Positions 3,001 through 60,200 of a stretch of 64,000 bases of DNA are shown one piece after another; position 1 is the first letter of the stretch; every line of letters starts with the position of its first letter. The DNA is from Heliocidaris erythrogramma (taxonomy: Eukaryota; Echinodermata; Echinoidea; Camarodonta; Echinometridae). The stretch spans positions 28,781,410 through 28,845,409 of the forward strand of contig CM046873.1 of the NCBI GenBank assembly GCA_025617745.1, read 5' to 3'. The notes under the pieces are model-generated. The model did no database searches, had not been told where the DNA came from, and saw only the letters and a list, made by a program, of their open reading frames with translations. A program made the translations under genes and the position numbers.

Positions 3001-6000
3001 TAAAGCCAGGGTAACAGTAGTACTTTGTATGCGCCTTGACCATCCCCTGGGATGGATATGTGCGCAATACAAATGTAGCTATTATTATTATCGTAACGAA
3101 CAAAACAGTCAACTTCTAGTTTTAGAAATATAGGCATAAAAGGCCGGGGCTGAGGGGCTAGGCTGCAGTCTCCAAAATTTATTTAGAATAAACTTACGAA
3201 TATTTGGGCAACCGCCACCTTACATTTTGGCCATGCGATGGCCTATTTGTATTTTTATATCTTAGTTTGCTTTATTTCAATGAAAAATTGCATGTTACTA
3301 TATAATAAAGTGTCAGTTTTGGTCGATCGCTTCGCTCGTTCGCAAAACTTACTACTTTTTAGAAAATGGAAAGGTTACATTCGGGTAAAATACGTTAGCC
3401 CGTAACGAAACTATCCCCATATTTTTGTGCAGACAGAGAGAGGAAGAGAGAGAGAGAGAGAGAGGGGGGGGGGGGGTGGGGGTCCCCTTATACCCCTTCA
3501 AATCGCTTCTAGCCCATGTCCGGCCTTAGTTGAATCTAACGATTACATGGATATACCATGCATTTTTTCTGGATACCTGGTGAGCGTTTCATCAAGCGTT
3601 TTGTCAGTGATTTTTACCGACAACTGTTATAAGCTACTGAAATCCTTGCATCTGATTGGCTGAGAGCAAATTTGTTAGTAAAAATCGCTGACAAAACGCT
3701 TGATGAAACTCTCCCCAGATGTTTATGAATGGGTAAACACATACAGAACATACCAGTGTGTCTTCTCAATGTGAAAGCAACGGTTTTTTTTTATACTGGT
3801 GCTTGGTTTAATCTCTACAGAATATATGATAACAAATGTGCCTTACATGAAGATTTTTACAATAGTTTCGCCGATGAAAGTTATGTACCGAATTCAGATA
3901 GAATTAATTAAGATAATAAAACGATGACAAGAAAACAGTTTCGTTTTCGACTTACTGGGTAGTCATGGTAACGTCTCTCATAATCCAACACTTTGAAAAC
4001 AAGTCAAATCAGGTTTATACAACATGTACAACCAAAGGTACAATCCCACTCCTGACGCAAACAGTTTATCCACCAGGCATAAGAATAGCTTAAGAATAGC
4101 ATGTAGGCATTGTTCCATCGGAGTTTCAAGAGGGTAAAGTTGAGAATTACACGAACGGGAGTCGTATTCAGGCCTATATCTGTTTCAGAGCTACACCTCT
4201 CATCGTGCACAAGATTGTGAATGATCTTGTGAATATCTGAGAGCTGAAGCATTCTTTGTTGTTTTACGACACCATGATCTTTCCTTGTTAAAGTAGATAT
4301 TCAAAGAAAATCACAAATATGGCAATTAATGTATCACTAGAAACTGGGAAGCTTACAGATGGCAATCGTATAAGTTTTATGTCAACTGCGTATCTGGTGA
4401 TTATAAAAACAACACAAATAAAAGCTCTTCTCAGCATCTGGAATATCCGAGGATTCGCCAGAAATATAGCGATGTTTTGATGTCGTCACACTCGGGATTG
4501 ATCCTGCTTAAGCAGACGACGTCCTATAATGAATGAACGTAATTGCAATGCAATTATTTATCAAATTATAAAGAGTTTGGTGTATTTAAACATGACCTTA
4601 TTTCACACCATTATAAAGGGAAAGTGAAACTGATTCTGATAGCTAAAACCGTTTGATTGTAAATACATAGGAGAAGGGTCAATGATCAATGAAATAAACC
4701 CCACTTTCAAATTGAAAAGCCCTCCGAATAATAGCAGGATGGTATTCGTTCCCTCTTGAAACGCCGAACATGCCCCGGTGCAAGCAGCTGAAAATACAAT
4801 GGCGTCTTATTTTGTTTACAAGTGACTGATTCCTTTATTTTTTTAACGCTGCATTTTTCATCAAAATAATACCATACACGAAGTTAAGAGTGAGGCAACA
4901 GACTAACATTAAGACTGACACTAGTGAAGGAAGAGAAATAAGTGAAGAGGAGATGACAAAATAGGCTCTGAAAAATGTGTAAGATGTTATGGGACATCGT
5001 CTGCTTAGACAGGACTGGTCCACGGTGTGTCGTCACATATCTCAGCAGCGTTCGAGGAGCTCTATATCGGGGGCTGTATTTTACCGTTTTGTAATTGATA
5101 ATAATCATTACTTCAAATGTTTCCAAGCGTTGAATTTGGATAACCTTGTTTAATTTATGCCATCTATGCAATAATAAGTATTAAGCCAATATTTAAAATC
5201 ATTAACGTTCTACTTTAAACTGCTTGTGACAGCTGACATATAGGTCTATACACCAGAGAGACAAAGAGCTAAACTATAGCACTTTCTCCATGAGCGACCG
5301 GACCCCGTTTTCTATGACTTCAGCAATTATTCCTGTCTTTGATTTTCTGAGGCTGTCAAGAACTTGGCGACGCCATCTTCGTATCAAACGTTCATCACTC
5401 TTACAGAGGCTTAATGTCAATGTCCAAATCCAGCAAAGATATATAAACAAATATGAATCCAGATTATACAGGCAGGATGGAGTAGAACTATACTAACCTA
5501 CTTTGGGCTGAGCTTATTGACTTGGTACAGTCCAAGTCAAAAGAATTTCGCAGAAGCGGAACAGCCTCCGTTCTCTCTGTGTGAAACAAACAGATTCCCG
5601 ACAGCGGTAAAACGAAGAATTCCTTCAGGAAAGTAATTCACCCAGAGCGGACAGAATTAAGAAAGATCCATTTATGATAAAATTTCCAAAAAGAAATACA
5701 ATCCATTAGAAAAGTTGAGCGATATACTTTCCACAAGATGAAGAAAACCAGATAAATCGCCACGCGCAGCCTCACCCCGTCTTGGAGATCGGTCACACAG
5801 GGGTGATGCTAAGTCCCGCGTAAACAAAAAAGAATCTTCCCTTCCTATCGTCTGCGCTAAGAGCCGTTGCGATCAATATTGATTAAGTCATGTCCGATAA
5901 CTATGATCGTACCTGTTTCTGAGGCGGTCTAGTCAGTCGTTGGGTGAAGGGGTGAAGGGTGAAGGGATAAAGAGATCGCCACCGCCTCTTGGGGTTTCCT

Positions 6001-9000
6001 TTGATTCCGAAATTGTGTAACACCACTTCACCTCTTTAAGGACGACATGTTCTTATTGAATATACATGAAGAGGATGACAACAGAGAGCTTTTTGAGCAT
6101 TCTCTCTTATTATTACAATCGCTGAGAAAATGTCTGCTTGTCGGCTAGTCTCACGATAAATTGGTCAACTAGTAAACACGATTTTGGGAATATTTTTTAA
6201 TCATCATTAGAAAATACTGCATAAATTATCATACCATTCAGTTATACCCCAGTTACACCTACATCAGACCGACAACAGATGGAACAAAAATTATATTAGC
6301 CCGAATAGCCCAGAATCGGTGGCTGTGGAATCAGTGTGGTTGTGTGACTGAGGCATTTTACCAAATGCCATAAGATTTGTGTATTTTCTGCAGTAATGAC
6401 TGTGTTCAGCTGCATGCAGGAAGTCAGGTCCGATTTTCCCATTAAAGGGGAAACATGCTTTTAATTTGCATGGAGTCACAGGCATCGATGGGTGTGATGT
6501 GTCAGGCGATTCGCATGGCAGGACTCACCCTATCATCTCATCGATTATCATGTACCAGGGACAATGGGCGATCGATTACTATAGGTGGTAAACAAGAAAT
6601 TACTTCTCCGGAAGCGACCAAGGGCCAAGACTTGATGCCACCTAGAAGGGCATGAAGGATGTGGCCTTACACCCTCTTGTACCCTAAGATTTCCAGTACA
6701 GGTGAATGGTACAGAGAGAGGGAGAGGGGGAGGGGGGAGAGGGGCGGGTAGGGGAAGAGAGAGAGAGAGCAAGAAGGGGGCAATGGTTAAAAGCGTTCTT
6801 GTTTTCAGGTCTGATCAGTCCTCAAGTAATAGGTCTACAGTGTAAAACTGTGCACGCACAGATATCAAGGACAACAGGGGGAAAATTCTTTTTTTTTAAA
6901 GAAAGAAAGATAAGAGAAGACTAGGATTAAAATGAACATCTTTTAAAGTAGATATTCAAAGAAAATCACAAATATGGCAATTAATGTATCACTAGAAACT
7001 GGGAAGCTTACAGATGGCAATCGTATAAGTTTTATGTCAACTGCGTATCTGGTGATTATAAAAACAACACAAATAAAAGCTCTTCTCAGCATCTGGAATA
7101 TCCGAGGATTCGCCAGAAATATAGCGATGTTTTGATGTCGTCACACTCGGGATTGATCCTGCTTAAGCAGACGACGTCCTATAATGAATGAACGTAATTG
7201 CAATGCAATTATTTATCAAATTATAAAGAGTTTGGTGTATTTAAACATGACCTTATTTCACACCATTATAAAGGGAAAGTGAAACTGATTCTGATAGCTA
7301 AAACCGTTTGATTGTAAATACATAGGAGAAGGGTCAATGATCAATGAAATAAACCCCACTTTCAAATTGAAAAGCCCTCCGAATAATAGCAGGATGGTAT
7401 TCGTTCCCTCTTGAAACGCCGAACATGCCCGGTGTAAGCAGCTGAAAATACAATGGCGTCTTATTTTGTTTACAAGTGACTGATTCCTTTATTTTTTTAA
7501 CGCTGCATTTTTCATCAAAATAATACCATACACGAAGTTAAGAGTGAGGCAACAGACTAACATTAAGACTGACGCTAGTGAAGGAAGAGAAATAAGTGAA
7601 GAGGAGATGACAAAATAGGCTCTGAAAAATGTGTAAGATGTTATGGGACATCGTCTGCTTAGACAGGACTGGTCCAGGGTGTGTCGTCACATATCTCAGC
7701 AGCGTTCGAGGAGCTCTTCAGCTGCTATATCGGGGGCTGTATTTTACCGTTTTATAATTGATAATAATCATTACTTCAAATGTTTCCAAGCGTTGAATTT
7801 GGATAACCTTGTTTAATTTATGCCATCTATGCAATAATAAGTATTAAGCCAATATTTAAAATCATTAACGTTCTACTTTAACAATGAAAGAATTAAAACA
7901 TAAGAAGAAATATATTTCAAAATGAGACAGATTGAAAGAGGGAGAGGGGTGAGAGGAAATGGATGTAGTACAAATATGAGGGATAGTAAAGGGACGAAAG
8001 CTTAGCTAGAGAGAGAGAGAGAGAGAGATAGAGAGGGAGAGAGAGAGAGGGAGGGAGAGAGAGAGACTATAAGCAAAAATAACTATGGAGCAAAATATCA
8101 CAACCTGTCGAAGGCCAGTTCATTGGCATGACTCAAAGCATGTCGATCACAACAAAACATTGGCCATACAACAAAAGCTCGACCACAATCCAGTTGAACA
8201 AACCCCAACAACCACAATGACAATGTTGCCAATCAATAATGATATCGATGTCGAAAGCGACTAACCTTTGGCCAAAACGCAAGTCCTGCATTCTCCGATT
8301 GGTTGAAAGACAAGTTGAGTTTGGGGTCTGAATTTGCGTTTATTCGCATTTCTTTTCATCATCGAGGGTCAAGACCAAAAGACTGACAATACCACCATTA
8401 CCATTTTAAGTGTATCTTTTAAAGAACATAAGGGGGCGGTTATTGGGAATAAACTTTGAATCCCTCCCTGGCATATTCGAATTGGTTATGTTTTCAATAG
8501 TGAACACGATAAAAACTACTTTCGAAAAATCAACTGAAAACAATTTCAATAGCCCTGTCTATCACCTTTAGAAATGTGCGAACATTACAATCGCCTATTA
8601 CGTAATCCGAACCTGATTTCTATGGGCAGTACAATATACCTTTGAAATTGCCCTTGAGTTTATTTTTCGAAAGTAGTTTTGATCGTGTTAGTGCAGATTC
8701 CAATACTATTTAAAAACAATTTATATCTTGATCGAAACTCCTACTTTAGATATTTGTGATTGATTTTATGGGTTTAAAAAATGGGGGGGGGGGGGGGAGC
8801 TGAGGTCAAGAGAATTATGTTTATGGCAAAATTCGCGCATTGCTTGAGTCAAAAGAAGGGTCTTACGGTCCCTTGTGGGGATCCAGGGACAAAGCCCCCA
8901 CCCCTCGAATCACTGAATGTTTTGGAGATTTTTTAATGCGACAAATCAAAACAAAACTTCTAGATGCTTTGAGACAATAAAATCAGTTTTTATTTTATTT

Positions 9001-20831: not shown

Positions 20832-21771
20832 TTAAAGTAGAACACTCAAGAAAATCACAAATATGGCAATTAATGTATCACTAGAAATTGGGAAGCTTAC
20901 AGATGGCAATCGTATGAGTTTTATGTCAACTGCGTATATGATGATTATAAAAACAACATAAATAAAAGCTCTTCTCAGCATGTGGAATATCCGAGGATTC
21001 GCCAGAAATATAGCGATGTTTTGATGTCGTCATACGAGGGATCGATCCTGCTTAAGCAGACGACGTCCTATAATGAATGAACGTAATTGCAATGCAATTA
21101 TTTATCAAATTATAAAGAGTTTGGTACATTTAAACATGACCTTATTTCACACCATTCTAAAAGGGAAAGTGAACTGATTCTGATAACTAAAACCGTTTGA
21201 TTGTAAATACACAGGAGAAGGGTCAATGATCAATGAAATAAACCCCATATTCAAATTGAAAAGCCCTGCGAATAATAGCTGGATGGTATTCGTTCCCTCT
21301 TGAAACGCCGAACATGCCGCGGTGCAAGCAGCTGAAAATACAATGGCGTCTTATTTTGTTTACAAGTGACTGATTCCTTTATTTTTTTAACGCTGCATTT
21401 TTCATCAAAATAATACCATACACGAAGTTAAGAGTGAGGCAACAGACTAACATTAAGACTGACGCTAGTCAAGTAAGAGAAATAAGTGAAGAGGAGATGA
21501 CAAAACAGGCACTGAAAAATGTGTATAATGTTATGGGACATCGTCTGCTTAGACAGGACTCGCCCCTCTTGTGTCGTCACACATCTCAGCAGCGTTCAAG
21601 GAGCTTTTCAGCTGCTATATCGGGGGCTGTATTTTACCGTTTTATAATTGATAATAATCATTAATTCAAATGTTTCCAAGCTTTAAATTTGGATAACCTT
21701 GTTTAATTTATGCCATCTATGCAATAATAAGTATTAAGCCAATATTTAAAATCATCAGTGTTCTACTTTAA
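20832..21771 (+). mobile_element. TTAA-flanked element A, copy 3 (932 bp)
   Basis: Element 20836-21767 with TTAA at 20832-20835 and 21768-21771. It is more divergent than copies 1 and 2. The empty site TTTCTTTAATCTCTC survives in the neighbouring duplicate near 22390 and confirms one TTAA before insertion. Confidence 0.9.
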
Positions 21772-24936: not shown

Positions 24937-27900
24937 TCAATCACACTGGTCGGGATGCTTGGCACAGAACGTGATAAGCCAGAATACGAGTTCCTCGTTA
25001 AGTTTGATTAAATCCTGAGGTTGGTAGTCAATATCACTTTCATCACCTACGTGGTAATAGCAGTAAACCAGTCGAATGCCACTGCTATACAGACCATTGG
25101 AGGGGTGCACGTCAGATTGCTCAGGAGTACCTTTCGTGTTCCAAAAGCGCCATTCCTTCTTCACAGACATACCGTGAACCTATATACGATAATGATAGTA
25201 GATAAGCTGGTATTAGTAGTAATAATAATACGATAATAGACGTGTCTTGGTCAGGTGGATACGTCACTGGACTGCAGTGGATCACATGGTTCGAGGTTCG
25301 AGTCCCGCCGCGGCATTAATGTCCTTTTCAAGACATTAAAGGAGAATTAACCCCTGATTACACATTTACTTATATTGGAAGATGTAATATATTCCTACTT
25401 ATTGGCCTAAATCATTTTCTAATAAGATATCAGAAAAGGGTATAAATAAAGATATTCCAACACCCGGTATCGTCTCCTACTCATTTCCATGGGGGCTGCC
25501 ATTTTCTTGCTGATTTGGAGTTGTACATGAACCATTGAGAAATTTTCCAGTCAGGAAGATATTTTGAATCCAAGACCTAAATTGATTTTCTTCATTACCT
25601 AAAAATCCCATATGTGACGAAAAATATAAAGTGGGTGTTTACATGTATTATAAAAATTAAATCTTTATAATGATACTTTTAAATTGTCTGGTTTTGCTTA
25701 ACAAAAATCTATTTTCGTGGGTTTGCCAAACAGAGCAGAACATAATATATGCAGCATGCATTCTGACTGTTCAAGTCCCATTATCCGAAAGCAGGTGAAT
25801 GCATAGTTTGCCGCTATAGATGCTTCGGGAAGAAGCATCCATAAAATTTGAATTAATTTGCTCCGTCCCATACGTCTAGTATCGAGAAAATAGATTTCTA
25901 TTAAGCGAATATCGATTTTCAACAGAAATATATAAGGAAATCTTCAGTTTAAAAATAAATTGACATATCCATTCTATATTTTTAATCTCAAATGGGTTTT
26001 TAATTTTGAAAAAGGCAATTGAGCATTTGGATTAAGAAAATCTTCTTGTACACATAAACAAAATGGCAGCCTCCATGTGCTGCTAGCAGACGATACATAT
26101 TGCTAGCAGATGGTAAATTTTGCTCAGAAAATCTTGATTCGTATCGATCTCGTATATTTTGACGCGAAGCCATATAGTCTAACAAGTAGGAGTATATAAC
26201 ACCTTTGTACACTATCATCTTTATTTTTGAGCGTAATTCTCCTTTAATCTGCATTTGCCACTCTCCAACAACGTATAGTAAAAACGTGTAGTAAATGGGT
26301 ACCTGCTCAGACCCTGTTCTTTGAATGCTTTCCGCGGCTTTGAGGCTGTTATTATAATGACTACCCAGTTACAAAGAGCAAATCTAATACGTTGACAGCG
26401 ACATTAGAATTTTGCCATGGTTAACAACATTTGTTGTTATTGATTCTGTTGAAACATGGGGGGAAGAAAGAACATTTGCTTCTAATTTATCTTATTTATC
26501 TTATACATTATCTTAACATACAATTTTACCAAAGGAGCTCCCCAGCCCCCCCCCCCCCCAGTTCCGCGGCCCATGTATGAAGAGAAAGCATATAAACAGG
26601 TAAACTGTTCTTTGCAATTAATAGTTAACTACTCACCTGTTGACATCGATCAAAGCGCGCTAAGAGCATGAAGTTTACATCAGTAGGGAGGAATATCGAC
26701 TGGGAAATAACGCCATCATTTCTGCAGCAGTACTGGATTTCGGTGTCGGTGCCATATGTCCCAGCAGGCACAACGCCAGTATTTAAACTGGTGTCCGAGA
26801 AGTCATTCTCCTCAGTCCAATGTATGTGACCAGATGTGAAACCTGGGGAAAGAATCCGGTAATAAGATTACTGTGAAGGTCCGTTAATCCGAAGGTTCAT
26901 AATTCAAAAAATGAATTAGGGTTCGTAATTAAATCTGAAAATGACACTGGGCTCATTTTTCCGTTGGTTCGGAAATGCGATGAATGATGCAGGCTTCTAT
27001 TACTAGAACCTTTTCGGAATCATGAACCATCGAAATTAAGAACCTTATTTCATTTTCGGAACTATGAACCTTACTTAAATTTCAGAATTAGGTACCCTAT
27101 TTCATTTTCGGAACTACGAACCTTCGGAATTATGAACCTTCGGAAAAAGCATGTAACCCTTGAATCATCACAGGTTTAGTATCGCATGACGGACGTTACA
27201 TCATCTACGAGTTGATATCGTTGGGATACACACATACACACACACTCACACACACACACACACACACACCCACACACATATGCAATTAGATACATGTGTG
27301 TATATATATATATACTCACTCAACCAAAGAAGTAAGTCCCCGGTAGCATTTTTTTCATATATCTCAAAAAATATTTTGCCAATTTTGATCTCGCAAACGG
27401 TAACCAGTAAATTGTGGAGTACCACAGGGATCTCTCCTTGGACCCTTACTTTTTATCTTATACATCAATGACTTTTATAAATCTTCCTCCATTTTATCTT
27501 TCATATTGTTTGCTGACGATTCCAATCTCTTTTTTTCCCATCGGGAGCCAGCAATTTTACTTTCAACAGTCAATTCCGAGCTGAAACGTGTTACGGATTG
27601 GATAAAAGCGAATAAGTTGTCTCTAAACCTAAATAAAACAAATTACATGCTCTTCAGCAATACTCTTCAATCCCTGCCTGGTAATATTCTTTTTGATAAT
27701 ATACCTATCGAAAAAGTGAAAACTACTAAATTTTTAGGTATAATAATTGACGATAAGCTCTCTTGGAAACCACAGACTGATAACTTGTCAAATTTGATTT
27801 CGCGAAACACAGGAGTAATTAATAAGTTGAAATACCAATTCCCATCCTTTATTTTGTTGTCTCTTTACCTAACCTTATGTTTTCAACATCATAATTATCG

Positions 27901-30190
27901 AATTTTAGCATGGGGCAACTCTACCGCGCAACAACTAAACAGATTACTATTACTTTCAAAAAAAGAACATGAGGATTGTATCTCTTACAGGTTATCTCTC
28001 ACATACTGACCAGCTCTTTCATAGTAATAAAGTTAACAAAGTGTCTGACTTATACTTTTATAATCTGGGTCAATTTATGTTCTAACTAATAAATAATGAA
28101 CTTCCGAATGCTCTCTCAGACCTTTTCACAACTAACAATACACTCCACAACTACCCAACGAGACAATCAAACTTTTTCCATCTTCCCCGCACGAGAACGC
28201 TCCTAGCACACAAAACATTCGTCTTTCCAGGTCCCAAATTTTGGAACAGTCTCGATCCAGACCTTAAGGAAATAGAGAGACTGCATCATTTAAAAAAAAA
28301 CAATTGAAATCTCTTTTGCTGAAACCATATGCTAGAATGCTGCATGGTTGCTGATCTCGATCTGTACTTCGCTTCTCTCTTCTCTCTTCTCTCTTTTCTT
28401 TTCTCTCTCTGTCTCTCTCCACACACACACACACACAAACTCTCTCTCTTTCATTCTATAGCTACTTATTTTTTTATGTTTTCTTTTGTTTCCATCTGCT
28501 GATTTTCGTCCTTTCTTTGTTTCTTCTCATCTTAATGTCCCCATTCTACTTTCCAGCTCCTTTTCTCGCTAAATGGGGACTTAACTCGACCAACCTCGCT
28601 TTTAATAGGTTCCCCCAGAAATGTATATATTGTATGCGTTTATTACATTTACTGGAAGATATTTATTATACTGAGTTATGTTATATGTATTATCCTTTGT
28701 ATTATGTCATACATGTATGTATGTTTATATTTTGCTTTCTCATGTATATATGTAAACCGATTGTGGAAACAAATCAAATCAAATCAAATCAAATCAAAAA
28801 TGGATGCGCAATTTCTTACGCACAATGTGACTAGTAAATCGTTGCCATAAAATTAACTTTTCATTATCAAAAAATGTATTTCCTGATACAAAGTCCAAAA
28901 AAAAAAAGCTGCACTTTTTGTAATGGCATATAAGGTATATTTTGTGTACGAGTAAGCATCTTCATTGAAGATGACCCGACATACAAAACTGTTATGTAAT
29001 TCAGTACTACTGCTACATTGTTCTTAGTGCATGCATGCTTTTTCCAAAAGCATGCATTTTTCTGAAACAACAGGCCTTTCAATATGAAATTGTTGGCATG
29101 CGTAGCGGAACGTCGGGCTTGGACATTGGAAGTGGGGGGGGGGGGGGGGGGGGGGGGGGCTTTGTCAATGACTTACTATGGTTTAACTTTTAAGGGGTCA
29201 AAACTTATGGGTAAAATGGGATGACTATTTCCGGACAGGCTCCTGGCTTATCACTTTTTTGGTTGAATATACATGTATGTCATTGTCATATTCGCATATT
29301 TCAAAAGGTGACGCACCCTACTGCAATTTTCTTCGGTAGATTTTATGAAGATGTTTTGACCAAAATTGTAGTCACATTTAGTCCTCAAATAGAGTTGTTT
29401 TAAGAATAAAAGATCATTACTAAATACACTTCAATCCTATTGATATACCAATTAATAATGTCGTGAAACGACACATTTTATGATTTTTGGCAAGTGATCA
29501 TTTTCTGTGGAATTGCCCCCCATGACTCGTGTGCCCCTCCTCAATCACTTACCGAGAAAATTTTCGAGATTCGAAACCTCGGAGATTGGTGTAGAATTTT
29601 TGTCCGTAGTATATGATAAAACACGGTGACAGAAATTGAAATATAAAACGACTTATGGAAAGAAAAATGAAATTCCAATGGAAGGAATATACATTTATAT
29701 GCAAATCATACCTTGTGGGCATTGTGAACCATACTGGTAAATGCAATACGACCCTGGCTGCCATTGCCATTGCGCACCAGGCATGTCAGGTACGGTTTTC
29801 ATGCAAAATTCTTGTTTCGAATATTGCCCGAACCACCAGCCCGCAAAAGCCTTCCCGTCGCTGCCAGAGTTTGGGTCGCCCTGTGAGGGATGAATGCGAT
29901 TTCCAGCATCCCAGTCAGTGGGACACCCATTGAAAGGACGAGGAAGCCCGTAGACACCGTCCGGCCAGGTGAGCGGGATTCGGATCTCTGGGTCTAAAAA
30001 ATGTTACATGGAGAAGACCATACTCAGAAATTACGTTAAAATGATGATGATGATAATAAGGATTGTGATGATTATGGTGATGATAACAACAACAACAATA
30101 ATAATAAGATAGATATTAATCATCATCATCATCATCATAGTGATCATGATAATTATAATAATAATATTAATAACAATAATAACAATAATG

Positions 30191-30225
<35 letters not shown>

Positions 30226-33200
30226 TTGTTCATAATGACCTAGGGTAGACACATCAGTATTAAGGATCGAACCCGCAACCTCTCGAATGAGAGTCAAGAA
30301 CCTTCTACCACTGTCAGTGCAGTCTTACGTACATCAATCTTATTAGCCTTAGTAAACTAAAAATTAATTTAGCTATTGACGCTGAAGGAATTCTTGAATC
30401 GCGTTTTCTTTCTTGAGCTTCATCTAGTCGTCGGGAGTCTCGGAACCCATCAATTTACAGTTGCCAATTCCCCCTTTTTCTTGAGGAATTTTATCAATGT
30501 ACTTTAAAGGGGATGCCCACCCTGGTTTTAGAAATGAGAAACGCAGCTCAGGGAAAATGTGAGGAAAATCGATAAAGGTTTAGAAACGGAGGTTTAAATT
30601 TGGGATCAATCAAACACAGGTTTTATTATACCTGCATCTTCCATGTACATTTATAATTGGACACATGTTTTTTCCAGTCACACTCTTTAAGTTGAAAATG
30701 TATTTGTTCATCAACAACAAATACAATGAAGCTTGAGATTTCTTTTTTGCATACTTGTGCTGCTCGCTATTCTGTGCCAGTCGCCATATCCATGCAAGGC
30801 AAGGTCCATATTGTCTTTAACTGCGCTCCTATTAAAAGATGCGGTGCAATGGCCTGCTTCTATGTAATCCTTCAGTCCAGTCCAGTAGTCGAGCTCGAAT
30901 ACCTGAGGCATTGCAGCCACCTTTAAACTGATGGGCTCTATAAAAAGACGAGATGATCAGACTTTCATAATTTCTTCATTTCTCTGAACGACGCTCTCTG
31001 CCTTGACAATAAGCCAGTTCGTAATTACAATTTGCGCATGGGCAGATAAAAGTAATTTTTACCGAGTACAGTTGACCGTTAGACCTTTCACAGTGAGCAC
31101 ACCAGGATGCGCGTACCAGTACGATTATTTTAGTTGTTTAACAATGACAATGGCAATGACAATGAGAATGGCATTTAATATCATGTCACACATATGCAGG
31201 GTAATGGAGAATATAATCGTACATGTATAAATAATCATTATATTCAATCAAATAATCTATAAAGCATTTGAAGTATATCATAACAATTAGCGCGTCCACC
31301 GAAACAGATTTGCGTGCACGTACAAATCGGGGTCATTTCAGGGTCATTTCAGGGTCATTTGTACCATGTACGAATTACGAACTGGCTTATTCACGTTATA
31401 ATTTACAAGGAAACATTACATAATGAAAAGGACACGATTCGCAAGCAAATGATACGGCTATATCTATGCCGAATGGTCATGAAAAACAAAACTTGTGAAC
31501 CATAATTACAATCCCTCTGCTTCACTCCCAAATTATTTGTAACTGCTTTAATGGCAGTTTGGAAGTTCGGTAGAATAGCAGAGGTAGATACTGGCGATAT
31601 AAAAGGAGAAATCATCATATTTAAAAAAAAAAAAGAGGGAATAGTGATACTTCGCTTATATCGTACTTTATATTAACCGTTTTTCCATTTCTTTCCGCAA
31701 TATTTCTATTATCAGCACAAAGTCTAATCAAAATGTGGCTTCAGTAACTAAAAAGGGCAAAACGTAAAATAAGTTGGAAGAAGGTTGCTTTAATAATGAT
31801 CATACTTCTAGAAACATCCACTGATTCCCGCTAAAGGAAACTCGAAAAATATGTATTAACAGGCATTATAAAACGGGTTCAAAAATGTAGCCATCCTGAT
31901 TGGTCAAATAACACCACGTGACCGTGCGAAAAAACATACTAAAGCACGGCTGAGCTGTGCGTACGCGTACCTCTAATGCGTGCAAACTTAAAACGCAATG
32001 AAATCGCGTAGTTTTAATTGTCATTTTAGCGCAGGGATTACATGCGCGCACTGAAACCATAGACTGAAACGCACATGAATTTTATCGTGGTGTCCAACAC
32101 ACTCGGCTTGCGCCTCGTACGTAATAAGTACACCACCATAAAAACTATTTATGTTGCCAGATCGCACCAACGCACTCCGAACCATGTACTAATAGTATAA
32201 CGTTTAATGTTCATTTCCCTTTCCATTGTCTAGTAATTTCCTATGTGCGTGGGCGTGCATGTGTGTGGGTGCTTTCTTTCCTTTTTTTTTGACGTTGACT
32301 TCTTGACCTCCTTCCTTTCTTATTTTGTCGGATCACATTCATCTTCGCATTTCTTGAATTTTTTCTCTAATAACCGTCAATAACTTTCAACTTTTCGTGC
32401 GCTGTGAATCGATACAGGGCAAGGTACATACATTTATTTTACACCGAGCACCTCTATGAGGAACACTAAATTCGTTAGGAAATAATCTATTTGTAAATTT
32501 AACTCGTGGAACAATATATTTTTGTTACTTTATGTGCATAGAAAATCCACAGAGAGAGAGAGAGAGAAAGAGAGGATGACGAACTTTCACCATTTGACAA
32601 CCAATCGGTTAAATATCCCACCGTTCAAGGTCTCGCTTCCAATCTTGTACTTTGAGTAACTGCGGCCAAAACTTGTTCCGCTGTCCATTGAGCTAGCGAA
32701 GGATTCCATGTTAACCGAAACGGATGCACTGAATCCAGCATACGCTCCCGAAGCACTGATACTTCCTTCAACCTGTATGTTTTAAAAAAAGATTCAAAGA
32801 CATAATTCCTCCGGGCTGGATTGTTATCCTTTATTCCTGTCTTTTTCAGTTTAGCCTAATTCCCCCATTCCCCTAAGGGCTAAGTGCCCGAAAGCTTATT
32901 AAAAGCGTGGTACCAACAGCTACGTCTGCAGGTGTACTTATTTTGTTGCCTCTCTCTCTCTCTCTCAATATATATACATATGTATATATATATATATATA
33001 AATCATATTCTTACATTTTGCGCAGCATAATTGACGAAGGATGACCTTTCTTCCTCGAGGTTTTCGCCTTCCTTGATTCCCAGAGCAACCTCAATGACAA
33101 CATGCTGTTAAACAAAAGCACACACACATCACAATTAATTTTTCTTTGCAGTAACTGCATTTCAAATATTAACATTAATAATAGACATGATACAGCCTGC

Positions 33201-36200
33201 TCAGGAATTCAACGCAACACACGCACTGACAAAAATGTAAAGGACGGAATGTCTCAAATTCGAAGAGAATACAATGTGATACATTATAGTATTCAGTACT
33301 TTTATTGACCCAGTCAACGTATGGATAGAGCACTGTCACACAGGATGTTTCTGAAAGCAGGAGACCCAAGAGAAAGAGTAAATTATTCAATAATTAAATT
33401 TTGTCCAAAAAAGGTCATGTTCTTTTCTTTTATATGGTACCTGATATCAATACATCACGTACGGGCAGTCTTAAGTGGAAGAAATCCAATTATTGTTGAA
33501 AATAAGCGAATTGCGATAAGTTTATCAAATCGAAAAGGAAGACAGTCTGAGATTACTAAGTGATTTACCCACACACTACTAAACACATAGTCAGAAATGA
33601 CCACTCCGTACATGCCGTAACCATTGCCCCGTGAGCTACTCGCCATGCCTGATTATGTATATATTATAATCCATATCGATGACACATCCCCAGTACTTCC
33701 TGGCTAAAATCATTTATATGAGTTAATAATAATGATGATGATAAATAATAATAAATGATAATAACAATGATAATAAAAAATAATAATTAGAGTATTATTT
33801 TCAAAGTCATTTGATTCAATTATTATTATTATTCTGCATATTACAGTACACATTATCCATTCGCCAGGGAGCATTCCAGCTAGTCGCCTTTTTTACGTGC
33901 CGGGGTTCGAGCCCACGACCTGTGCATCCCCAGTCAAGTGAATAAACCAATCGACTACGACAATATCTACAAATTATAACCACAAAAGTGGAAATTAAAT
34001 ACATATACTTGATTTTTTAATGTAAAGAAATGAAAAGCATTTTTTTTCGGGGTGATTTTTTTTACCGTTCCCCAATTATCCATGAATTCCATGTATTCGT
34101 TCTTTGTCTCGTCTGTGTAAGTGTTTGGAAGGCGGCAAGAGTCAGCAACGAAGCCAGCGGAGAGTAAATGTCTCCCGGAATGTGCAAGTTCAGTCTCGTA
34201 ACGTGCGTGACCAAGGTTTGTTATCGTCTCATTACTCAGGAACACAGATCCTTGACTAGAGGTTTTCGAGGCCACTCGTTGGTAGCCTTTATTAATCAAC
34301 ACAGTCATTCATTAGTAAAAATCATATTAAAATTGGATTCATGGTATGGACATTACATGATTGCAGTGACAGGGGGAATAAAGAGAGAAACTTACGTCTT
34401 GTTTGATAAAGGCTGACATCTAATGGGCTCTTTAGAATGTATTCATTCCTTCGTCCAAACATACCGTACTAATAACAAAAATAGGCACTAACGTTGCTTA
34501 ATAGTCGAATAATTGCGTTGGAATTTACACCAGGGCCCTGTCTCATAAAACTTATTATCAAAAACAACTTGCAATAACTGTAATTTTTATAAGCTACTGA
34601 AATCCTTGCATCTGATTGGCTGAGAGCAATTTTGTCATAGAAATATTGCAGTTGTTACTGATAACAAGTTCGTTTTCGACAGAGGATCCCATTCTGGATC
34701 CTTCCAAGGAGTGGGAAGTAGACCTACTCTAAGTTTTGTTTGAGAAACAATCAAGATTTACGTTTTTGGGTTAAAAAAAATGATTTAGGCATCTTTATCA
34801 TATTTGCTGAGACAGTTAGGCTGAGTGAGGTCAAATGGATACAATACTTAAACTTAAGGTGAAAGGTTAAGATACATATATCGCCGACCTCATTTGATGC
34901 TCAGTGTTGGTGTACATACCAACACACACCGGGGACCATAAAAGAGGTTGCCATGCTAATATTAATTATCAATATAGATTCAACATGGAATAAAAATGGA
35001 AAATTATTGACTTTTTTACTTTTATTTTTTATTTTTACTTTAAAAAATAATTTTACATTGAAAAAGAACTTGTCTTAAACAAACTCTTTCTTTCTCCAAG
35101 TTCGATATTCAAAGTCTGCAACAGGCCAACAATTCAAATAACAAAATATTGAACACAACTGATACGAATTTCTACGACTTTTAGTGGAATTAGAGGCGCG
35201 ATGGCTCAGTGGTACAGCAGTAGTCTCATAACTGAGACGACCAGCGTTCGAAACCAAGTGGATGCGCTGGTGCCCTTTGGTAAGGAATTAATCCTCATTA
35301 ACAAGTCACGCGCAGAGGACTTAGAGCCGTAGGTCCTCTGGGTGCCTATTAACAAGCATGCACATGCTTTCTCAGCAGTCAGGTAGAATAAACCATCAAA
35401 CTTACGGGCACTTGCAGCAAACTGGACACTTGCCGTGGCACCTTCGTATCCACCTAAAAAAAGGAAAGAAGATACAGTGAAAATCACTGGGAAATCACTG
35501 GGCTTTGTGGCGTGCGCCTGTAATCCAGCTACCAGTGGAAGTAATAAACTGATTCAGCGGACCCAGGTTCGAGATTGAGTCACGTCTTTCGGATGGTGAC
35601 GTTAAAGGTCGGTCCCAGACGTAAATAATCATATCTGATTGATACACGTCTGTAAAAACCCAATTACACACACGTTGTCTTTAGCTTTTACCCTTTCAGG
35701 ACAGGAAATATTTAAGGGCTAAATTAATCACATTTTGTTCTTCAAAATGGCAACAATAATATTTTTCTTTTAGATCTACATGGTTCTAATAAGGTGTAAT
35801 GTCTTTGAAAACAATATACATGGTTAGATATTTTGTCAAATAGTTGAAACAATTGCCAATTTTGATGAAAAATAATGATTTTGAACCTCTCAATGTGTTG
35901 CCAATTCAAGGATTGTAAAGCTTATTCTCGTTTTTTAAATTCCTGGCATCAAACGCAATATGGTCATGCCCGTGGAGGGAATTATTCCACACGCCAGTTA
36001 TTGAAAGTATTGTTTGCCCTGTCCATTTTGCAATCGCATTTTAACGATGTCACTCCTTCATGAAGGCGCAAAAGCACCGTACAAGTCATAGCCTTTTGAC
36101 AAGGCCCTCGTGACTTGGCTATTTTTCTTGGCAAGTAAGCTAGTAGTGGCTGCATAACAAGACTAGCCGCCCAGCCCGGTGAATGCGCTATCGAGCGACG

Positions 36201-38376
36201 TGTCGCGATGGCCTTTTGGAACCTGGCTTGTATTTCTTATGTTATCCTTTGTTCCGAGCGAGGATCTGCTACCTTTTTGGTAGGAGCCAATCAGCGGACG
36301 TATCTTCGCATGACGTCAGCATAAATTTGGTATGAAATTCGCCTTCATCTCGAGCACTAGCTCGCTCGGCACGTACTGCACCCGGCGCAAGGCTACATCA
36401 ATCATGACCGAATGGAAAGCAAGCCCCGCAGAGACCGTTGTGATTGGTCGATAATCCTCGGTGTAGGCGTGTTAGCATACGAATGTCAACTCGTGAATAA
36501 TTCATATCGGACGATGGAAACCCAGGTTCCAAAAGGCCTCGCTACTAAAGTCGCTCGATCGCGCGTTCACCCGGCCGTGTTGATTCTTTTCGTCGCCGGC
36601 TAGTCTCATCTCAGGCACAGCATGGCGAGGAAAATGGCCAAGTCACAAGGCCTTGTCAAAAGGCTATACAAGTCACCGACACAGTCCTTATTTCGGCAAT
36701 GACGCCTCGTGTGAGCCGGGTTTAAAAGGATACGCCACCGGGCGGCCGTGGGGAAAGTCAGGATTGCGTAAGCCCCATTCACTCATACACAAAGTTTGTG
36801 CGCCAAACGCGTTCGTTGGACTAAGTGGGATTACATTTCGACTGCACGAAGCCGACCGAATGTCGCACGAGAGCTCGAGCTCAGGTGGAGCGTACATGTT
36901 TGTGCGGCGACCAGTCTTCCGAGGTTTGCGCCCCGAGGGGCAACGGCATGATCAGGTAACGATCACGGTGCCCTCTCGCGGCATTAAAACGTCCACAATC
37001 TGCGGTTGAGTATCCCTTTAAAGGGGAAGTCCGGTCAAAGAATTACATGGTTTTAATAGAAGAAAATAAATAAATGAAACAAAAGCTCGATGAAATCGGA
37101 CAACTAAGAAAGTTATGATTTGTTTTTAATTTACATGAAAAGTAGGGAAAACAATGAAAATCACTAGATACATTGGCAACTCGTGAATGAGTTTGTGACG
37201 TCATTACCTCACAACACACCAATTAATTTCTTGACATAAATAATACAAACTTTCAATTTTTGTCTAGGAATATGATTTCCTCATAACTTGAACCAAATTA
37301 AAAATTTATAGTAATATGTTTTTGTCTTATTAGTTGTCCGATTTTTCTCAAACTCTTAAAAAATTATGTTTGTCTGATTTTTCTGCTTCTATCAAAACCT
37401 AGTAATTCTTTGACCGGACTTCTCCTTTGAGTTAGGCTCCGGAAAGCTATTGCTTTTACAGGAAGATAAACGAGTATGTGTCATAAAACTTACCACATGG
37501 CTGTGGAGGAGGCAAAGATGACATAGTATAATAGAATCAAGGTAGCCAATATATAATATGCATGTCGGAGATCTTCACTGCTTCATATGCAGATAATGCC
37601 AATGTGTAAGATAGTTAACCTAAAAAAGTTACACGTCGTTTTTCCGAAGGTTCGTATTTCCAAAGGTTCGTTACTCCGATAGTTCGTAATTCCGAAAATG
37701 GAATCATGGGAATAGGGTTCGTAATTTCCAAAATGAAAAAGGGTTCATTTGGAACTATGAACCCTTTTCCAAAAATGGTGTCAACTTTGTCGCCATCAAT
37801 TATTCTAGGTTTTATGCAGGGAGGCCTTTCAAGTTCATTTTTTCCATTTCTTCCGTTTTGTCATTCTTTGTATACGAAAGGTTCAAAGGCTTTGTGTTTG
37901 TTTATTTGCAGACGACCTGGTCATTTGGAAATATAATACAAATGATTTTCTATTATTTGAAATATCGAACAGGCTCCCAAGTTCCTATGATACCTACCAT
38001 CTACGTCAACCTGTGCGGAGAGTTTAGAAGCGTAACTTTCGGTACCATAAAACGTTGACAGTGATGATGTTGAAAAGGCGCTGTTACGGCGTACGAAAGT
38101 CACCCCGTCGGGAATTCGATTTTGCTGGTCAGAAGTCAACTCCCCTTGGTCAAAAGTGAATTCGAAGATCCGTCGACTGAGAAGGAGGCCGGGATCCACA
38201 CCACCGGTACTCAGATCGCCCCCTTCTGGGTTGCCCTCTATGATGTTGTAGCCGATGCCGAGAAAGTTGACACCATGCTGGATCGGAAGTTCAGCCGTAA
38301 CAGAACAGCGTTTGATATCTTGAATCATTACCAGTGTTGAGATGATAAGGAGAAAAGCAAGGTTTCCACCGAACAT
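24937..38376 (-). CDS. Apextrin-like secreted protein (MACPF + ApeC), 9 coding exons, complete
   Basis: Exons in order: 38376-37998, 35453-35406, 34286-34066, 33104-33015, 32772-32622, 30937-30755, 29993-29712, 26842-26637, 25179-24937. All have GT donors and AG acceptors, and every junction keeps phase, giving 600 residues. Residues 1 to about 28 form a hydrophobic signal peptide (MFGGNLAFLLIISTLVM). Exons 1-6 make a MACPF domain. Its signature spans the exon 3/4 junction as Y-x6-WGTH at residues 207-217, with small-residue beta-hairpin segments on either side (GYEGATASVQFAASA; SISASGAYAGFSASVSV). Exons 7-9 encode an ApeC domain: WPDGVYGLPRPFNGCP, FCMKT, YCIYQYGSQCPQG, QYCCRNDG. MACPF+ApeC is the known architecture of apextrins, secreted proteins in echinoids, cnidarians and amphioxus, linked to development or innate defence. 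The MACPF part is expected to oligomerise into membrane pores; ApeC proteins of amphioxus bind bacterial cell-wall material. Pore activity here is inferred, not shown. Exon 3 has a weak acceptor (TTAATAAAG). Confidence 0.9.
25239..26362 (+). repeat. tRNA-derived SINE split by a TTAA MITE (intron 8 of the apextrin-like gene)
   Basis: The left part, 25239-25339, has the tRNA-like head: box A TTGGTCAGGTGGATACG and box B GGTTCGAGTCCCGCCGCGG. The right part, 26244-26362, continues the same SINE (CTGCATTTGCCACTCTCC, then AGTAAATGGGTACC). Removing the insert restores the junction ACATTAATCTGCATTTGCC, as in the copy at 1.3 kb. Confidence 0.85.
25336..26247. mobile_element. TTAA MITE 'AGGAGAATTA' (904 bp) inserted in a SINE
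   Basis: Element 25340-26243 has 10 bp perfect inverted ends, AGGAGAATTA and TAATTCTCCT, and TTAA on both sides. The interrupted SINE gives the pre-insertion site. It contains no transposase frame. The TTAAAGGAG border fits the TTAAAGGRR pattern of T2-type MITEs. Confidence 0.9.
26880..27150 (+). repeat. Degenerate 'TTCGGAATTATGAACC' repeat cluster
   Basis: Short units built on GGTTCGTAATT and CCTTCGGAATTATGAACC alternate in both orientations. The same motif family recurs at 37.64-37.78 and 39.67-39.94 kb. Confidence 0.75.
27225..27320 (+). repeat. CA and TA dinucleotide microsatellites
   Basis: (CA)n at 27232-27275 followed by (TA)n at 27300-27314. Confidence 0.95.
27380..28800 (+). pseudogene. 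CR1/L2-type non-LTR retrotransposon, 3' part with broken reverse transcriptase
   Basis: One frame gives CGVPQGSLLGPLLFILYIND and then FADDSNLFF, the conserved reverse-transcriptase palm motifs with the FADD catalytic pair. The frame continues through KANKLSLNLNKTNYMLF and KFLGIIIDDKLSW to about 28005. Frameshifts and stops follow, but the C-terminal block is still readable (NNELPNALSD; PTRQSNFFHLPRTRT; FPGPKFWNSLD). The 3' end carries an AAATC pentanucleotide tail at about 28765-28795, as many CR1/L2-clade elements have short-repeat tails. The 5' half, including the endonuclease, is missing. It lies in intron 7 of the apextrin-like gene, in the opposite orientation. Confidence 0.88.
29134..29159 (+). 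repeat. 26-base poly-G tract
   Basis: Uninterrupted G homopolymer in intron 7 of the apextrin-like gene. Confidence 0.95.
30040..30225 (+). repeat. ATG/ATA/CAT trinucleotide microsatellites
   Basis: Mixed GAT, AAC, ATC and ATA trinucleotide runs in intron 6 of the apextrin-like gene, adjoining the SINE at 30.23 kb and probably partly its tail. Confidence 0.9.
30226..30315 (-). repeat. tRNA-derived SINE head fragment
   Basis: The minus strand reads a box A-like TGGTAGAAGGTTCTTGACTC and box B GGTTCGATCC. A long ATT-type tail lies immediately downstream. Confidence 0.6.
30500..30715. mobile_element. Possible one-ended TTAA MITE fragment (AGGGGATGCCCACCC)
   Basis: TTTAAAGGGGATGCCCACCC has the form of a TTAAAGGRR-type MITE end. 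No matching inverse end was found nearby, so this is at most a truncated copy. Confidence 0.4.
30940..32620. other. Intron 5 of the apextrin-like gene
   Basis: No mobile element recognised except a short GGGTCATTTCA triplication near 31330 and a GA repeat at 32552-32575. I looked here for a missing MACPF exon and found none with correct splice sites and phase. Confidence 0.5.
32950..33001 (+). repeat. CT and TA simple repeats
   Basis: (CT)n followed by (TA)n in intron 4 of the apextrin-like gene, just downstream of exon 4. Confidence 0.9.
33715..33962 (-). repeat. tRNA-derived SINE with AT-rich tail
   Basis: The minus strand has a box A-like TCGTAGTCGATTGGTTTATT and box B GGGCTCGAACCCCGGCACG at about 33896-33915, then a body and ATT-repeat tails at 33822-33832 and 33726-33785. 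It lies in intron 3 of the apextrin-like gene. Confidence 0.65.
34531..34682. mobile_element. Palindromic MITE variant (GGGCCCTGTCTCATAAAAC)
   Basis: It starts CAGGGCCCTGTCTCATAAAA, carries the shared core AATCCTTGCATCTGATTGGC, and has internal inverted arms TTGCAATAACTG and CAGTTGTTACTG. It lies in intron 2 of the apextrin-like gene. Confidence 0.7.
35194..35401 (+). repeat. Second tRNA-derived SINE type, abutting exon 2 of the apextrin-like gene
   Basis: Head GCGATGGCTCAGTGGTACAG (box A-like) and GCGTTCGAAACC (box B-like), then a ~140 bp body unlike the 2.8 kb family. It ends within a few bases of the exon 2 donor at 35405, so intron 2 begins almost directly with SINE sequence. Confidence 0.65.
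35488..35682 (+). repeat. 7SL-like SINE, full-length copy
   Basis: The head GGGCTTTGTGGCGTGCGCCT is followed by GTAATCCAGCTACCAGTGG. This closely follows the Alu domain of SRP (7SL) RNA, where the human gene reads GGTGGCGCGTGCCTGTAG and CCAGCTAC. A box B-like GGTTCGAG and a body ending TTACACACAC follow. It lies in intron 1 of the apextrin-like gene. Other copies are at 41.24-41.41 kb and 15.79 kb (truncated). Confidence 0.75.
36080..36675. mobile_element. 578 bp long-TIR element with 9 bp target duplication (Mutator-like)
   Basis: Element 36089-36666 starts TAGCCTTTTGACAAGGCC and ends with its exact inverse. The arms stay similar for over 100 bp (AGTGACTTGGC-type segments, CTAGCCG, GAACCTGG/CCAGGTTC). 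TACAAGTCA flanks it on both sides (36080-36088, 36667-36675). Long inverted ends plus 9 bp duplications are typical of the Mutator superfamily. Nothing in it encodes a transposase. Confidence 0.88.
36722..37021. mobile_element. TTAA MITE 'AGGGATACGCC', copy 2 (292 bp)
   Basis: Element 36726-37017, closely similar to the 17.46 kb copy, plus a short extra segment (CAGGTGGAGCGTAC near 36880). Its right TTAA (37018-37021) is also the left border of the next MITE. Confidence 0.88.
37018..37430. mobile_element. TTAA MITE 'AGGGGAAGTCCGGTC' (405 bp)
   Basis: Element 37022-37426. Left end AGGGGAAGTCCGGTCAAAGA, right end TCTTTGACCGGACTTCTCCT. The inverted arms include ATTACATGGTTTTAATAGAAG and its near-inverse. 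Borders are TTAA at the left and a mutated TTGA at the right. Confidence 0.85.
37635..37780 (+). repeat. 'GGTTCGTAATTCCGAAAATG' repeat cluster
   Basis: Several degenerate units (TTTCCGAAGGTTCGTA, TTCGTAATTCCGAAAATGG, GGGTTCATTTGGAACTATG) related to those at 26.9 and 39.7 kb. Confidence 0.75.
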
Positions 38377-42599: not shown

Positions 42600-42942
42600 A
42601 GTTCAAGAAAAGTGACCCAACTGTATTAAGACATTAGGAAGAACATTTTAACATTCGATTTTGATTGGAAACACATATTAAAAAACAATGAAAAACATTA
42701 CAGTGAAGCAATTCAATTTTAAAGCACTTCATCGTATCTTACCTTTTAGATATAATTTATGGAAATGGAAAATTGTAAATGAAAATTTATGTACTTTTTG
42801 CAAAACAACTGAAACGTTTGTTCATGTTTTGTTAGAATGCCCCAAGGTAATAATATTTTGGAAACGTATTGTTGCATTTATTCGTCATGACTTCAAACAT
42901 ACACTTATATTGAATGAAAAACACTTTGTCACAGCCGATTAA
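42600..42942 (+). pseudogene. L1/Tx1-type non-LTR retrotransposon C-terminal fragment (zf-RVT)
   Basis: A frame from 42688 encodes FNFKALHRILPFRYNLWKWK, then LCTFCKTTETFVHVLLECPK and FWKR. The C-x2-C-x8-H-x4-C pattern after a 'FK.LHRILP' motif is typical of the zinc-binding region that follows reverse transcriptase in L1/Tx1-like elements. The frame stops at 42942 without the rest of the domain, and no reverse transcriptase is adjacent, so this is a short dead fragment. Confidence 0.8.
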
Positions 42943-57266: not shown

Positions 57267-60200
57267 TCAATAACCGTAATGATCCTGAAAACAAACAAAT
57301 GATAAAACAAAGTAATGTTAGCAACGTTTTTAATTTGTAAACAAATCTTTCGGCATGTTAGCAATGTTAACAAAATACACAGGTGTAATTAAGATATCAT
57401 TTTCATTTCTAAGTTTCAAATTTGAGAGTTTGGCAAAGGTCATGTCAAAGAAAACTTGGACAACTCGACATTATGATCTAACCTTCAGAGCTCATTATTC
57501 AGAATTCCAAGGATTGGCCAAATTTCAAGTCAAATAATTTTACTTTAACTGAAGTATTTCAAGTCAACCGAGTTTGACGCCTTACGACTCTGTACACCAC
57601 TTGTCGAGCCTGGCCCTTGACAAGTGCTCGCCATCCTAATGGCAAATAACAGCTTAATATTCTGGTTAGGTGTGAAAAAGAAAATATACGAAGAGTGAAA
57701 GAAACATACCCATAAGCCATTGGCCACTGAATTCTCTAATTCCCATAGGCTTAATACAGGGATCACCCTGTTCCCGTAGACAATGGCTTAAGAACTGACC
57801 TGTATAGAGTTGACGAGTCCGTTGGCCATGCGGGAGAGCTTGCCGGCGACCTGGTTGACGCCGTCCTTCATGCCGTCCTTTATGGCCCCCAGATCAGCTC
57901 CGGTGGAACCCCTCGTCGTTGTCCTCCCGAAGTACTCGTCGCTTGATATGGATTGCGCGTTCGCGAACCGGGCAGACCGTTGCTGGTTCTCATGCTGCAA
58001 GGAGAAAGGATCAGAGAATGCACTACTGGAAAACCAGAAATTTTTTCGCGTCGACAAAATAATTGAATCTTAACTGATGCAACATGAATTTTCGTGATTC
58101 ACAAAAGTTTCTTGCCTGAAAATCGCTGTCCTTTACAATTTGGTGAAATTTCCCAGTTATTCTGTTTTATACCGCTAAGATTTATTTCTCATAACCGATG
58201 TAATGAGAACAAAGACATGTTAACGGGAAAGACCACACTGGTATTTAGTTGATTTGAATGAGAGCAGAAAAATGAGAGAAACAGTTCAGTGACAGTTTGA
58301 GCGAAATCCGACAAGAAATAAGAAAGTTATGAATTTGTAATCAATCAAACACAAATTGTCAACTCCTCTCCCGTTTGGTCAGTGAAGAAAATTTCATAAA
58401 TTTTTTTCTTAGTTGTTGATGAAGGAATACATTCAGCTTGCTTCATACAGGTTTTGTTTAAATAAATATCTACAATGATTATATCTAGGTTGCATGTATG
58501 ATTAAATATTTTCTTTAAAAAAATTAGAATTTCATGATTTTATGTACTACAGAGCAAATGGAAGAGGACCTCAACAGATACATCCAAGGGTTGCCAGTTT
58601 GTGTTTGATTGATAACAACTTCAGATATTCATAACTTTATTCTTTATCAGATTTTGCTCAAAATGTCATTGCTATGATTGTGGCTTTAACATTTCTCCTT
58701 TAAAGGCCAAGTCCACCCTAACAAAAAGTTGATTTGAATAAATAGGGGAAAATCCAACAAGCATAACACTGAAAATTTCATCAAAATAGGATGTAAAATA
58801 AGAAAGTTATGGTATTTTAAAGTTTCGCTTAATTTCGCAAAACAGTTATATGTACATCCTGCTCAGTATGCAAATGAGGGAACCAGTGACGTCACCCACT
58901 CACTATTTCTTTTGTATTTTATTATGTGAAATATAGAATATTTTAATTTCTGCAGATTTCACAATTAGGAAGCTCTCATTGAATTGCGTATAGGTTGCAA
59001 CAATGGCAATTACACATGTTCAGCGAGGAATCAGACCTTGTTTCACATTATAACAAGGAAAAATTAAAATATTTCGTATTTCATGTAATAAAATACAAAA
59101 GAAATAGTGAGTGGGTGACGTCACTGGTTCCCTCATTTGCATACTGAGCAGGATGTGCATACAACTGTTTTGCGAAATTAAGCGAAATTTTAAAATACCA
59201 TAACTTTCTTATTTTACATCCTATTTTGATGAAATTTTCAGTGTTATGCTTGTTGGATTTTTCTCTATTTATTCAAATCAACTATTTGTTAGGGTGGACT
59301 TGGCCTTTAAGAACCGACTCGATATCATATGGGAAGGAAATGCGAAGAAGTAATCATCGGTGACACTACTTTACATCATCCAAGATATATTGGTGAAGTG
59401 ATCACAAGCATACACACGCAAACATAATATTAAAAGGCAATTGTACCACATGAATTCTGTACTTATTATGTAAGTATCACTTCTCTCTCGTCTATGATAC
59501 AATATTTCCATCTTGTTTGTGTGTAGCCGGAAAAAAAAAATATATGCCAAATTCTGGAATGAAAACAAAAAATAGTGTACTATTACATGTATAATTGGGA
59601 GTCAGAGTGACTGGAGAAAATCTAGAGATCTAGAAAACAGCAGTCATCGAGATGATGCAATATACAGTACCAGAGGTTTTGCTGAATATCACGATTTTAG
59701 TTTGTGCAATTGTGCAAACATGATGCATGAGAAGTGAGAAGCACTGACTAGTTTTTCAAAATGAAATATTATTTTGAAAGTAAAATAGCTCCTCAAAGGC
59801 TTACTGAAACAGTTGACTACCATGCTTGTTGATTAGCTTGTCTATTTTAATTGCAGTGAATATCATGAATCCTTTGTATGCCATAAATTATGTAGAGGTC
59901 ACACAACATTTTGCTGTGATGCCAAACTAACTACTAATGGCCCTCTCAAAATAGCAAATCTTAGGGCCGATTCAGTTACGCGCTTTGATTTGACCTTCAA
60001 GTCCCTCTGACAGGCCAAAATGGTCTGCTAACTAGTGTGTCACCTGAAACTTACGCAAACCACTAATGACAGCCATGGCAGGAAACAATTGTGAATTTCA
60101 AATGTTTCATGCTGTGGTTCATCTATAATTTTCAAAAATTTGAGCCAGGAAACTTCCTGAATCTCAACCATTGGAAAACTTTGCAGAAGTTCCAAGCACG

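Follow-up and report, generated by a model that had tools for sequence, protein, structure and literature searches.

A nine-exon apextrin-type gene with MACPF and ApeC domains in Heliocidaris erythrogramma, and its paralogues

Apextrins are a subfamily of the ApeC proteins, and their architecture is given in the literature as a signal peptide followed by a MACPF and an ApeC domain (PMC8361754, PMC9585378). The founder of the subfamily is the apextrin of Heliocidaris erythrogramma, and the group as a whole is placed between defence and embryonic matrix, with a mode of action that is called unclear in the account cited here (PMC8361754). A likeness of apextrin to the apicomplexan perforin-like family was published in 2007 (PMC1896004). 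The short-form ApeC proteins ACP1/2/3/5 of amphioxus and CgACP1 and BgACP1 of molluscs, unlike the protein treated here, are described as having ApeC but no MACPF domain; ACP5 has a CUB domain. We analysed a stretch of 64,000 nucleotides of the H. erythrogramma genome (C21:28781410-28845409, hereafter the window; the genome comprises 1.06 Gb in 26 contigs), in which one gene codes for a protein with the order of the apextrin subfamily: a signal-peptide-like N-terminus, a perforin-like MACPF domain and a C-terminal, lectin-like ApeC domain. It is likened to the founder apextrin by domain order, not by residues, and differs from it in having a C-terminal tail and no DXED motif. The one COX1 match of the genome, on contig C24, contains 11 in-frame TGA codons; under code table 9, AAA reads as Asn in FPRMNNMSFW and ATA as Ile in MPIMIGG, the code of echinoderms and flatworms, and the COX1 protein resembles a sea urchin one.

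The gene lies on the minus strand, with nine exons between positions 38376 and 24937 of the window that join in phase into a coding sequence of 1803 nt, which codes for 600 amino acids and closes with a stop codon at 24937. The exons measure, from the first to the ninth, 379, 48, 221, 90, 151, 183, 282, 206 and 243 nt. All eight introns are of the GT..AG type, with phases 1,1,0,0,1,1,1,0. The exons are as follows.

37998..38376, minus strand: exon 1, with the start codon and the hydrophobic N-terminus, residues 1-126, including the LGxGYNxxxGNPxGG...DPG stretch
35406..35453, minus strand: exon 2, 48 nt, in which the MACPF match begins
34066..34286, minus strand: exon 3, MACPF, first membrane-hairpin region; its last three codons are W-G-T of the signature
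33015..33104, minus strand: exon 4, MACPF, opening with the H of W-G-T-H
32622..32772, minus strand: exon 5, MACPF, second membrane-hairpin region
30755..30937, minus strand: exon 6, end of the MACPF region (EPISLK...), beyond the Pfam match
29712..29993, minus strand: exon 7, first half of ApeC, with C381, C421, C441 and C449 and without DXED motif 1
26637..26842, minus strand: exon 8, middle of ApeC, with C490, C491 and C518 and without DXED motif 2
24937..25179, minus strand: exon 9, end of ApeC (C560), 37-residue tail and stop, without DXED motif 3

A nine-exon gene of 600 residues with every junction in phase had been proposed in a sequence-only reading of this DNA, and its coordinates and length proved right, the strand having been left unstated there. 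Two in-frame stops lie no more than 12 nt upstream of the ATG, and paralogues begin with MFG or MFR at the same start position. The weak spot of the model is the donor of exon 5, gtggga, which is non-consensus; its position is common to the paralogues, which have gtaagt, gtgaga or gtagga there. Since the Pfam MACPF match stops at profile position 140, a missing exon between exons 5 and 6 was suspected, and it was rejected on finding the same direct LN|EPI join in all five paralogue rows of the alignment.

Elsewhere in the window, an RVT_1 fragment (27404..28009, plus strand, Pfam 2.3e-14) lies antisense within intron 7 and is no part of the gene, and a zf-RVT match at 42682-42942 (plus strand, 1.1e-7) is another retroelement fragment. 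An element of approximately 940 bp is present in three copies (4288-5219, 6943-7881 and 20832-21771) and recurs, at 91-95% identity, in stretches of C2 that hold ApeC exons (L003, L004, L013). Minus-strand frames at 57545-58069 and 60714-60974 look like C-terminal exons of an ArfGAP2/3 gene; the three frames tried against Pfam matched no family. Neither Rfam at its gathering threshold nor a tRNA scan gave a match in the window.

The structure of the gene is repeated in its paralogues. The closest full paralogue, at C21:44216147-44194668 (hereafter C21:44.2M), has nine exons coding for 605 residues, and 433 of the 597 aligned residues (432 in a second count) are identical to those of the window protein. 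Its exons (379, 48, 221, 90, 151, 183, 291, 206 and 249 nt) equal those of the window gene in length in seven of nine cases, its intron phases match at all eight positions, and its intron lengths differ. The window gene is under purifying selection relative to this nearest paralogue (Nei-Gojobori, 597 codons: dN 0.179, dS 0.476, dN/dS 0.376). Broken down by part, and for this one gene pair, dN/dS is 0.20 over residues 1-126, 0.37 over exons 2-6 and 0.44 over ApeC; exon 1 is 86% identical between the two. Two more distant paralogues, on C2 (L014) and C19 (L009+L010), also have nine exons with the phases of the window gene, and the placed exons of five partly resolved ones (L012, L013, L018, L019 and L025) agree with its structure, apart from spurious placements at the ends (the ninth exon of L012 and the first of L019). 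The L015 paralogue has broken frames. Exon 2 measures 48 nt in every paralogue where it was located, that is, in all except L019 and L025. In a six-row protein alignment, the window protein shares 49-69% identity with the other rows. Because the splice search accepted only GT/AG sites with the phases of the window gene, within about 30 nt, the weight of the paralogue support rests on sites at offset 0, which were found for all nine exons in C21:44.2M, L014 and the C19 paralogue. Judged against these paralogues, the reading from raw sequence placed every splice site of this animal gene, with its nine exons over 13 kb, exactly.

It might be argued that the model is artefactual and describes either a pseudogene or a joining of exons that belong to different genes, and a second, nearly identical copy speaks for this. 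An inverted near-copy of exons 1-8 lies at C21:30.116-30.129 Mb (within L029+L024+L030, C21:30107000-30136999); its exons 1-6 differ by one substitution, there are one-base indels in its exons 7 and 8, and the 30 kb read did not yield an exon 9. But this copy ends at a gap of 500 N. The four 1-kb bins closest to the gap contain 23, 15, 8 and 10 indel events, against 1-5 per kb farther from it, up to 38 kb, an increase toward the gap as at the tip of a contig. The window, for its part, contains no N, the reading frame of its gene is uninterrupted, and all nine exons recur in the paralogue. We therefore hold an artefact to be highly improbable: on sequence grounds, the window gene is real and intact, a complete apextrin.

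As for the near-copy itself, it aligns to the window at 26.05-38.5 kb over about 12,380 columns, with 28 substitutions. Divergence then jumps, to 49 substitutions in 753 columns at 38.5-39.3 kb; broken collinear matches continue to 47 kb, and the window at 58.2-62.0 kb shows 40 mismatches over 3,881 columns when aligned to the same region. We did not accept the near-copy as a real tandem gene, given the 500-N gap at its end and the indels that climb toward it. On the simplest reading it is probably the contig tip of a retained haplotype piece. Three origins remain for it, namely a retained haplotype with uneven divergence, a duplication, or gene conversion.

The joined protein was searched against Pfam, the check suggested together with the sequence-only reading, and both domains matched, in the apextrin-like order of MACPF followed by ApeC that had been claimed. 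MACPF (PF01823) matched residues 137-272 at 3.4e-10 (40.9 bits against a cut-off of 21.5, profile positions 2-140 of 214) and ApeC (PF16977) matched residues 367-562 at 5.9e-47 (160.6 bits against a cut-off of 26.5, profile positions 1-208 of 208). Near the N-terminus, residues 6-18 form a hydrophobic run with a 13-residue mean of 2.92 on the Kyte-Doolittle scale, and by this measure of hydropathy the N-terminus is a putative signal peptide. The MACPF motif is published as Y/W-G-T/S-H-F/Y-X6-GG in the sources cited (PMC5618198, PMC2954219), so that the W-G-T-H of the window protein, earlier thought unusual, falls inside it with its W. It is followed by V in place of F/Y and by G-I in place of G-G, and five paralogue rows deviate likewise, with V or I in the former position and G-S, G-T or G-M in the latter. 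The intron described as splitting this signature between T and H is real, although it is not special: it is found, in phase 0, in all eight paralogues that could be placed there (L012, L013, L014, C19, L018, L019, L025 and C21:44.2M), the frame of L015 being broken at this point.

We read the stop of the Pfam MACPF match two thirds of the way through the profile as arising because the second hairpin region joins EPI(S/G/T) directly, a join present in all rows of the six-row alignment. In the MACPF superfamily the core has four strands, and its two helical clusters turn into membrane hairpins. The strand-like alternation of the second hairpin region (exon 5) was reached by 0.008 of shuffles, and that of the first region was no better than shuffles (0.18). 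Results in paralogues were mixed, with values for the first and second region of 0.27 and 0.14 in L014 and of 0.21 and 0.03 in C19. In the ApeC domain all eight conserved cysteines are present, at the positions given above, as is described for amphioxus ACP1/2/3/5 and for mollusc CgACP1 and BgACP1. None of the three DXED motifs sought in this domain was found, and the protein continues for 37 residues (564-600) beyond YCYYH.

Matches to proteins of solved structure were obtained as well. Residues 35-199 of the window protein match TgPLP1 (PDB 5oup), an apicomplexan perforin-like protein, at 1.8e-5, and the LGxGYNxxxGNPxG...DPG stretch (residues 35-62, exon 1) resembles perforin-like proteins, namely 5oup and, weakly, 9xda (0.038). 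The scored match to 5oup does not extend past residue 199 and stops short of the signature, for which the alignment stays below threshold. Apicomplexan perforin-like proteins are not known to have an ApeC domain. Complement C9 (PDB 6cxo) was aligned around the signature by the six-row family profile at 0.0041, over 48 profile positions only; the flanking domains of C9 differ from those of the window protein.

The ApeC domain had also been called rare, which is not borne out in this genome. An ApeC profile search gave 93 exon matches at E <= 0.001, of which 38 begin where the profile begins; these include the window gene and the near-copy, and two of the 38 are partial. With the first 357 residues as query, 114 matches were obtained in the genome, and 32 of these, one of them partial, were of the first-exon type. 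We estimate that the genome, as assembled, contains roughly 30 apextrin-type genes, a number that would fall if retained haplotype pieces are among them; in the ApeC search there are places on C2 that score equally, as near-identical copies would. The same ApeC search found no match in 14 control genomes. A Pfam MACPF census gave no match among 23 candidates in the genome, because the domain is divided over several exons, and matched in one of the 14 control genomes. Within the window there is no further copy beyond matches at E 2.4 and 7.0. In the paralogue at C19:18248000-18267999 (L009-L010) the last exon continues into a second ApeC, which by mechanical splicing gives MACPF-ApeC-ApeC.

DXED motif 1 is present in 19 of the 38 first-half ApeC exons genome-wide. 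It is missing in the window gene, the near-copy, four exons at C21:44 Mb and one at C7:2.73 Mb, which have a rebuilt loop in common; dissimilar exons on C5, C13, C19 and C20 lack it too, and DXED loss is therefore not peculiar to the group of the window gene. In a sample of 24 selected second-half exons, which is not a census, motif 2 occurs in 11 of the 23 that were readable and in none of the six from this group (the window, four on C21:44 Mb and one on C7). Among the gene models, L014 and L018 have three DXED motifs and L025 none; the C19 model has two in its first ApeC, a third match falling in the second ApeC, and C21:44.2M has none in exons 4-8, with DTEG replacing motif 3. An eight-row tree pairs the window protein with the C21:44.2M protein with a support of 100/100. 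After YCYYH these two proteins carry tails of 37 (window) and 39 (C21:44.2M) residues, ending in KHPDQCD or KHPEECD, with a poorly conserved middle. The L014, L018 and L019 models end two residues past FCYYQ, and L025 has an unrelated extension of 18 residues.

The distinctive traits of the window protein, the absence of DXED and the C-terminal tail, belong to a small group of paralogues, and as far as its sequence tells it is otherwise an ordinary apextrin. The window gene, the cluster at C21:44.0-44.2 Mb and the gene at C7:2.73 Mb may tentatively be viewed as a subclade of apextrins whose function has changed. The basis of this doubtful proposal is that no exon read from the group retains DXED motif 1 or 2, that the first and second ApeC cysteines enclose a rebuilt loop, and that the two members followed to their ends carry the tails of 37 and 39 residues. 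Two members stand on the tree, the rest being grouped by loop sequence and by first-exon identities of 75-85%. DXED motifs are described as 'relatively conserved' in ApeC and not as obligatory: amphioxus ACP5 and snail BgACP1 lack all three, as does the window protein, and are reported still to bind microbes (PMC9585378). Since binding persists there, DXED loss is not evidence of lost function.

As to what the protein does, we give about an even chance to the reading that it is a secreted defence protein, acting at barrier surfaces or in the coelomic fluid, which would attack membranes with its MACPF domain and be targeted by its ApeC domain. Export would depend on the hydrophobic N-terminus. 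By comparison with other ApeC proteins, the ApeC domain with its eight cysteines would dock on glycans of the microbial cell wall or surface, and the protein may multimerise through these cysteines, disulphide-linked multimers having been reported for recombinant ApeC proteins. Docking and multimerisation would together gather MACPF domains at the surface of the target. There the two hairpin regions are predicted, from the MACPF family and its usual outcome of membrane piercing, to unfold into a membrane-piercing beta-barrel; alternatively, they may hold the complex on the surface. We count in favour of a defence role the intact gene, both Pfam domains, the matches to TgPLP1 and C9, the eight cysteines, the dN/dS ratio and the alternation in the second hairpin region. 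Counted against it are the partial MACPF match, the V...G-I signature, the absence of DXED and the alternation of 0.18 in the first hairpin region, and also two published observations, that the short amphioxus ApeC proteins tested bind bacteria without killing them (PMC9585378) and that sea urchin apextrin was discovered as an apical matrix protein (PMC8361754). A role as immune effector is plausible for the window gene, a label drawn from its relatives.

The protein could instead have a structural role in the apical extracellular matrix: released from vesicles, it would take part in adhesion and reinforce the embryonic or adult epithelium, and its MACPF domain would serve as a scaffold for oligomerisation and make no pore. 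The founding apextrin of H. erythrogramma is reported as an embryonic apical matrix protein of the larval ectoderm (PMC8361754) and coral apextrin as ectodermal around metamorphosis (PMC1896004), and the glycine pair of the signature and the DXED motifs are altered in the window protein. Many clustered copies, however, would suit defence genes better, and sea urchin genes for ApeC proteins are reported to be up after bacterial stimulation (PMC8361754), so that we regard a matrix role as possible and on the unlikely side. We consider it fairly unlikely that the protein recognises microbes without lysing them, its ApeC binding and clumping them and its MACPF no longer forming pores. Such a role would agree with the degenerate signature, with the partial Pfam match of MACPF and with the agglutination, in place of killing, reported for the short ApeC proteins tested (PMC9585378); yet the N-terminus and MACPF are, if anything, more constrained than ApeC, unlike a disused domain, and a clam apextrin is reported to be inhibitory (PMC9585378).

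Whichever role applies, the approximately 30 apextrin genes of this genome, with or without DXED motifs and tails, form a natural series for ApeC ligands and for membrane piercing by MACPF. If the subclade that includes the window gene is real, its ligand, be it host matrix or a particular microbe, could differ from that of other apextrins.
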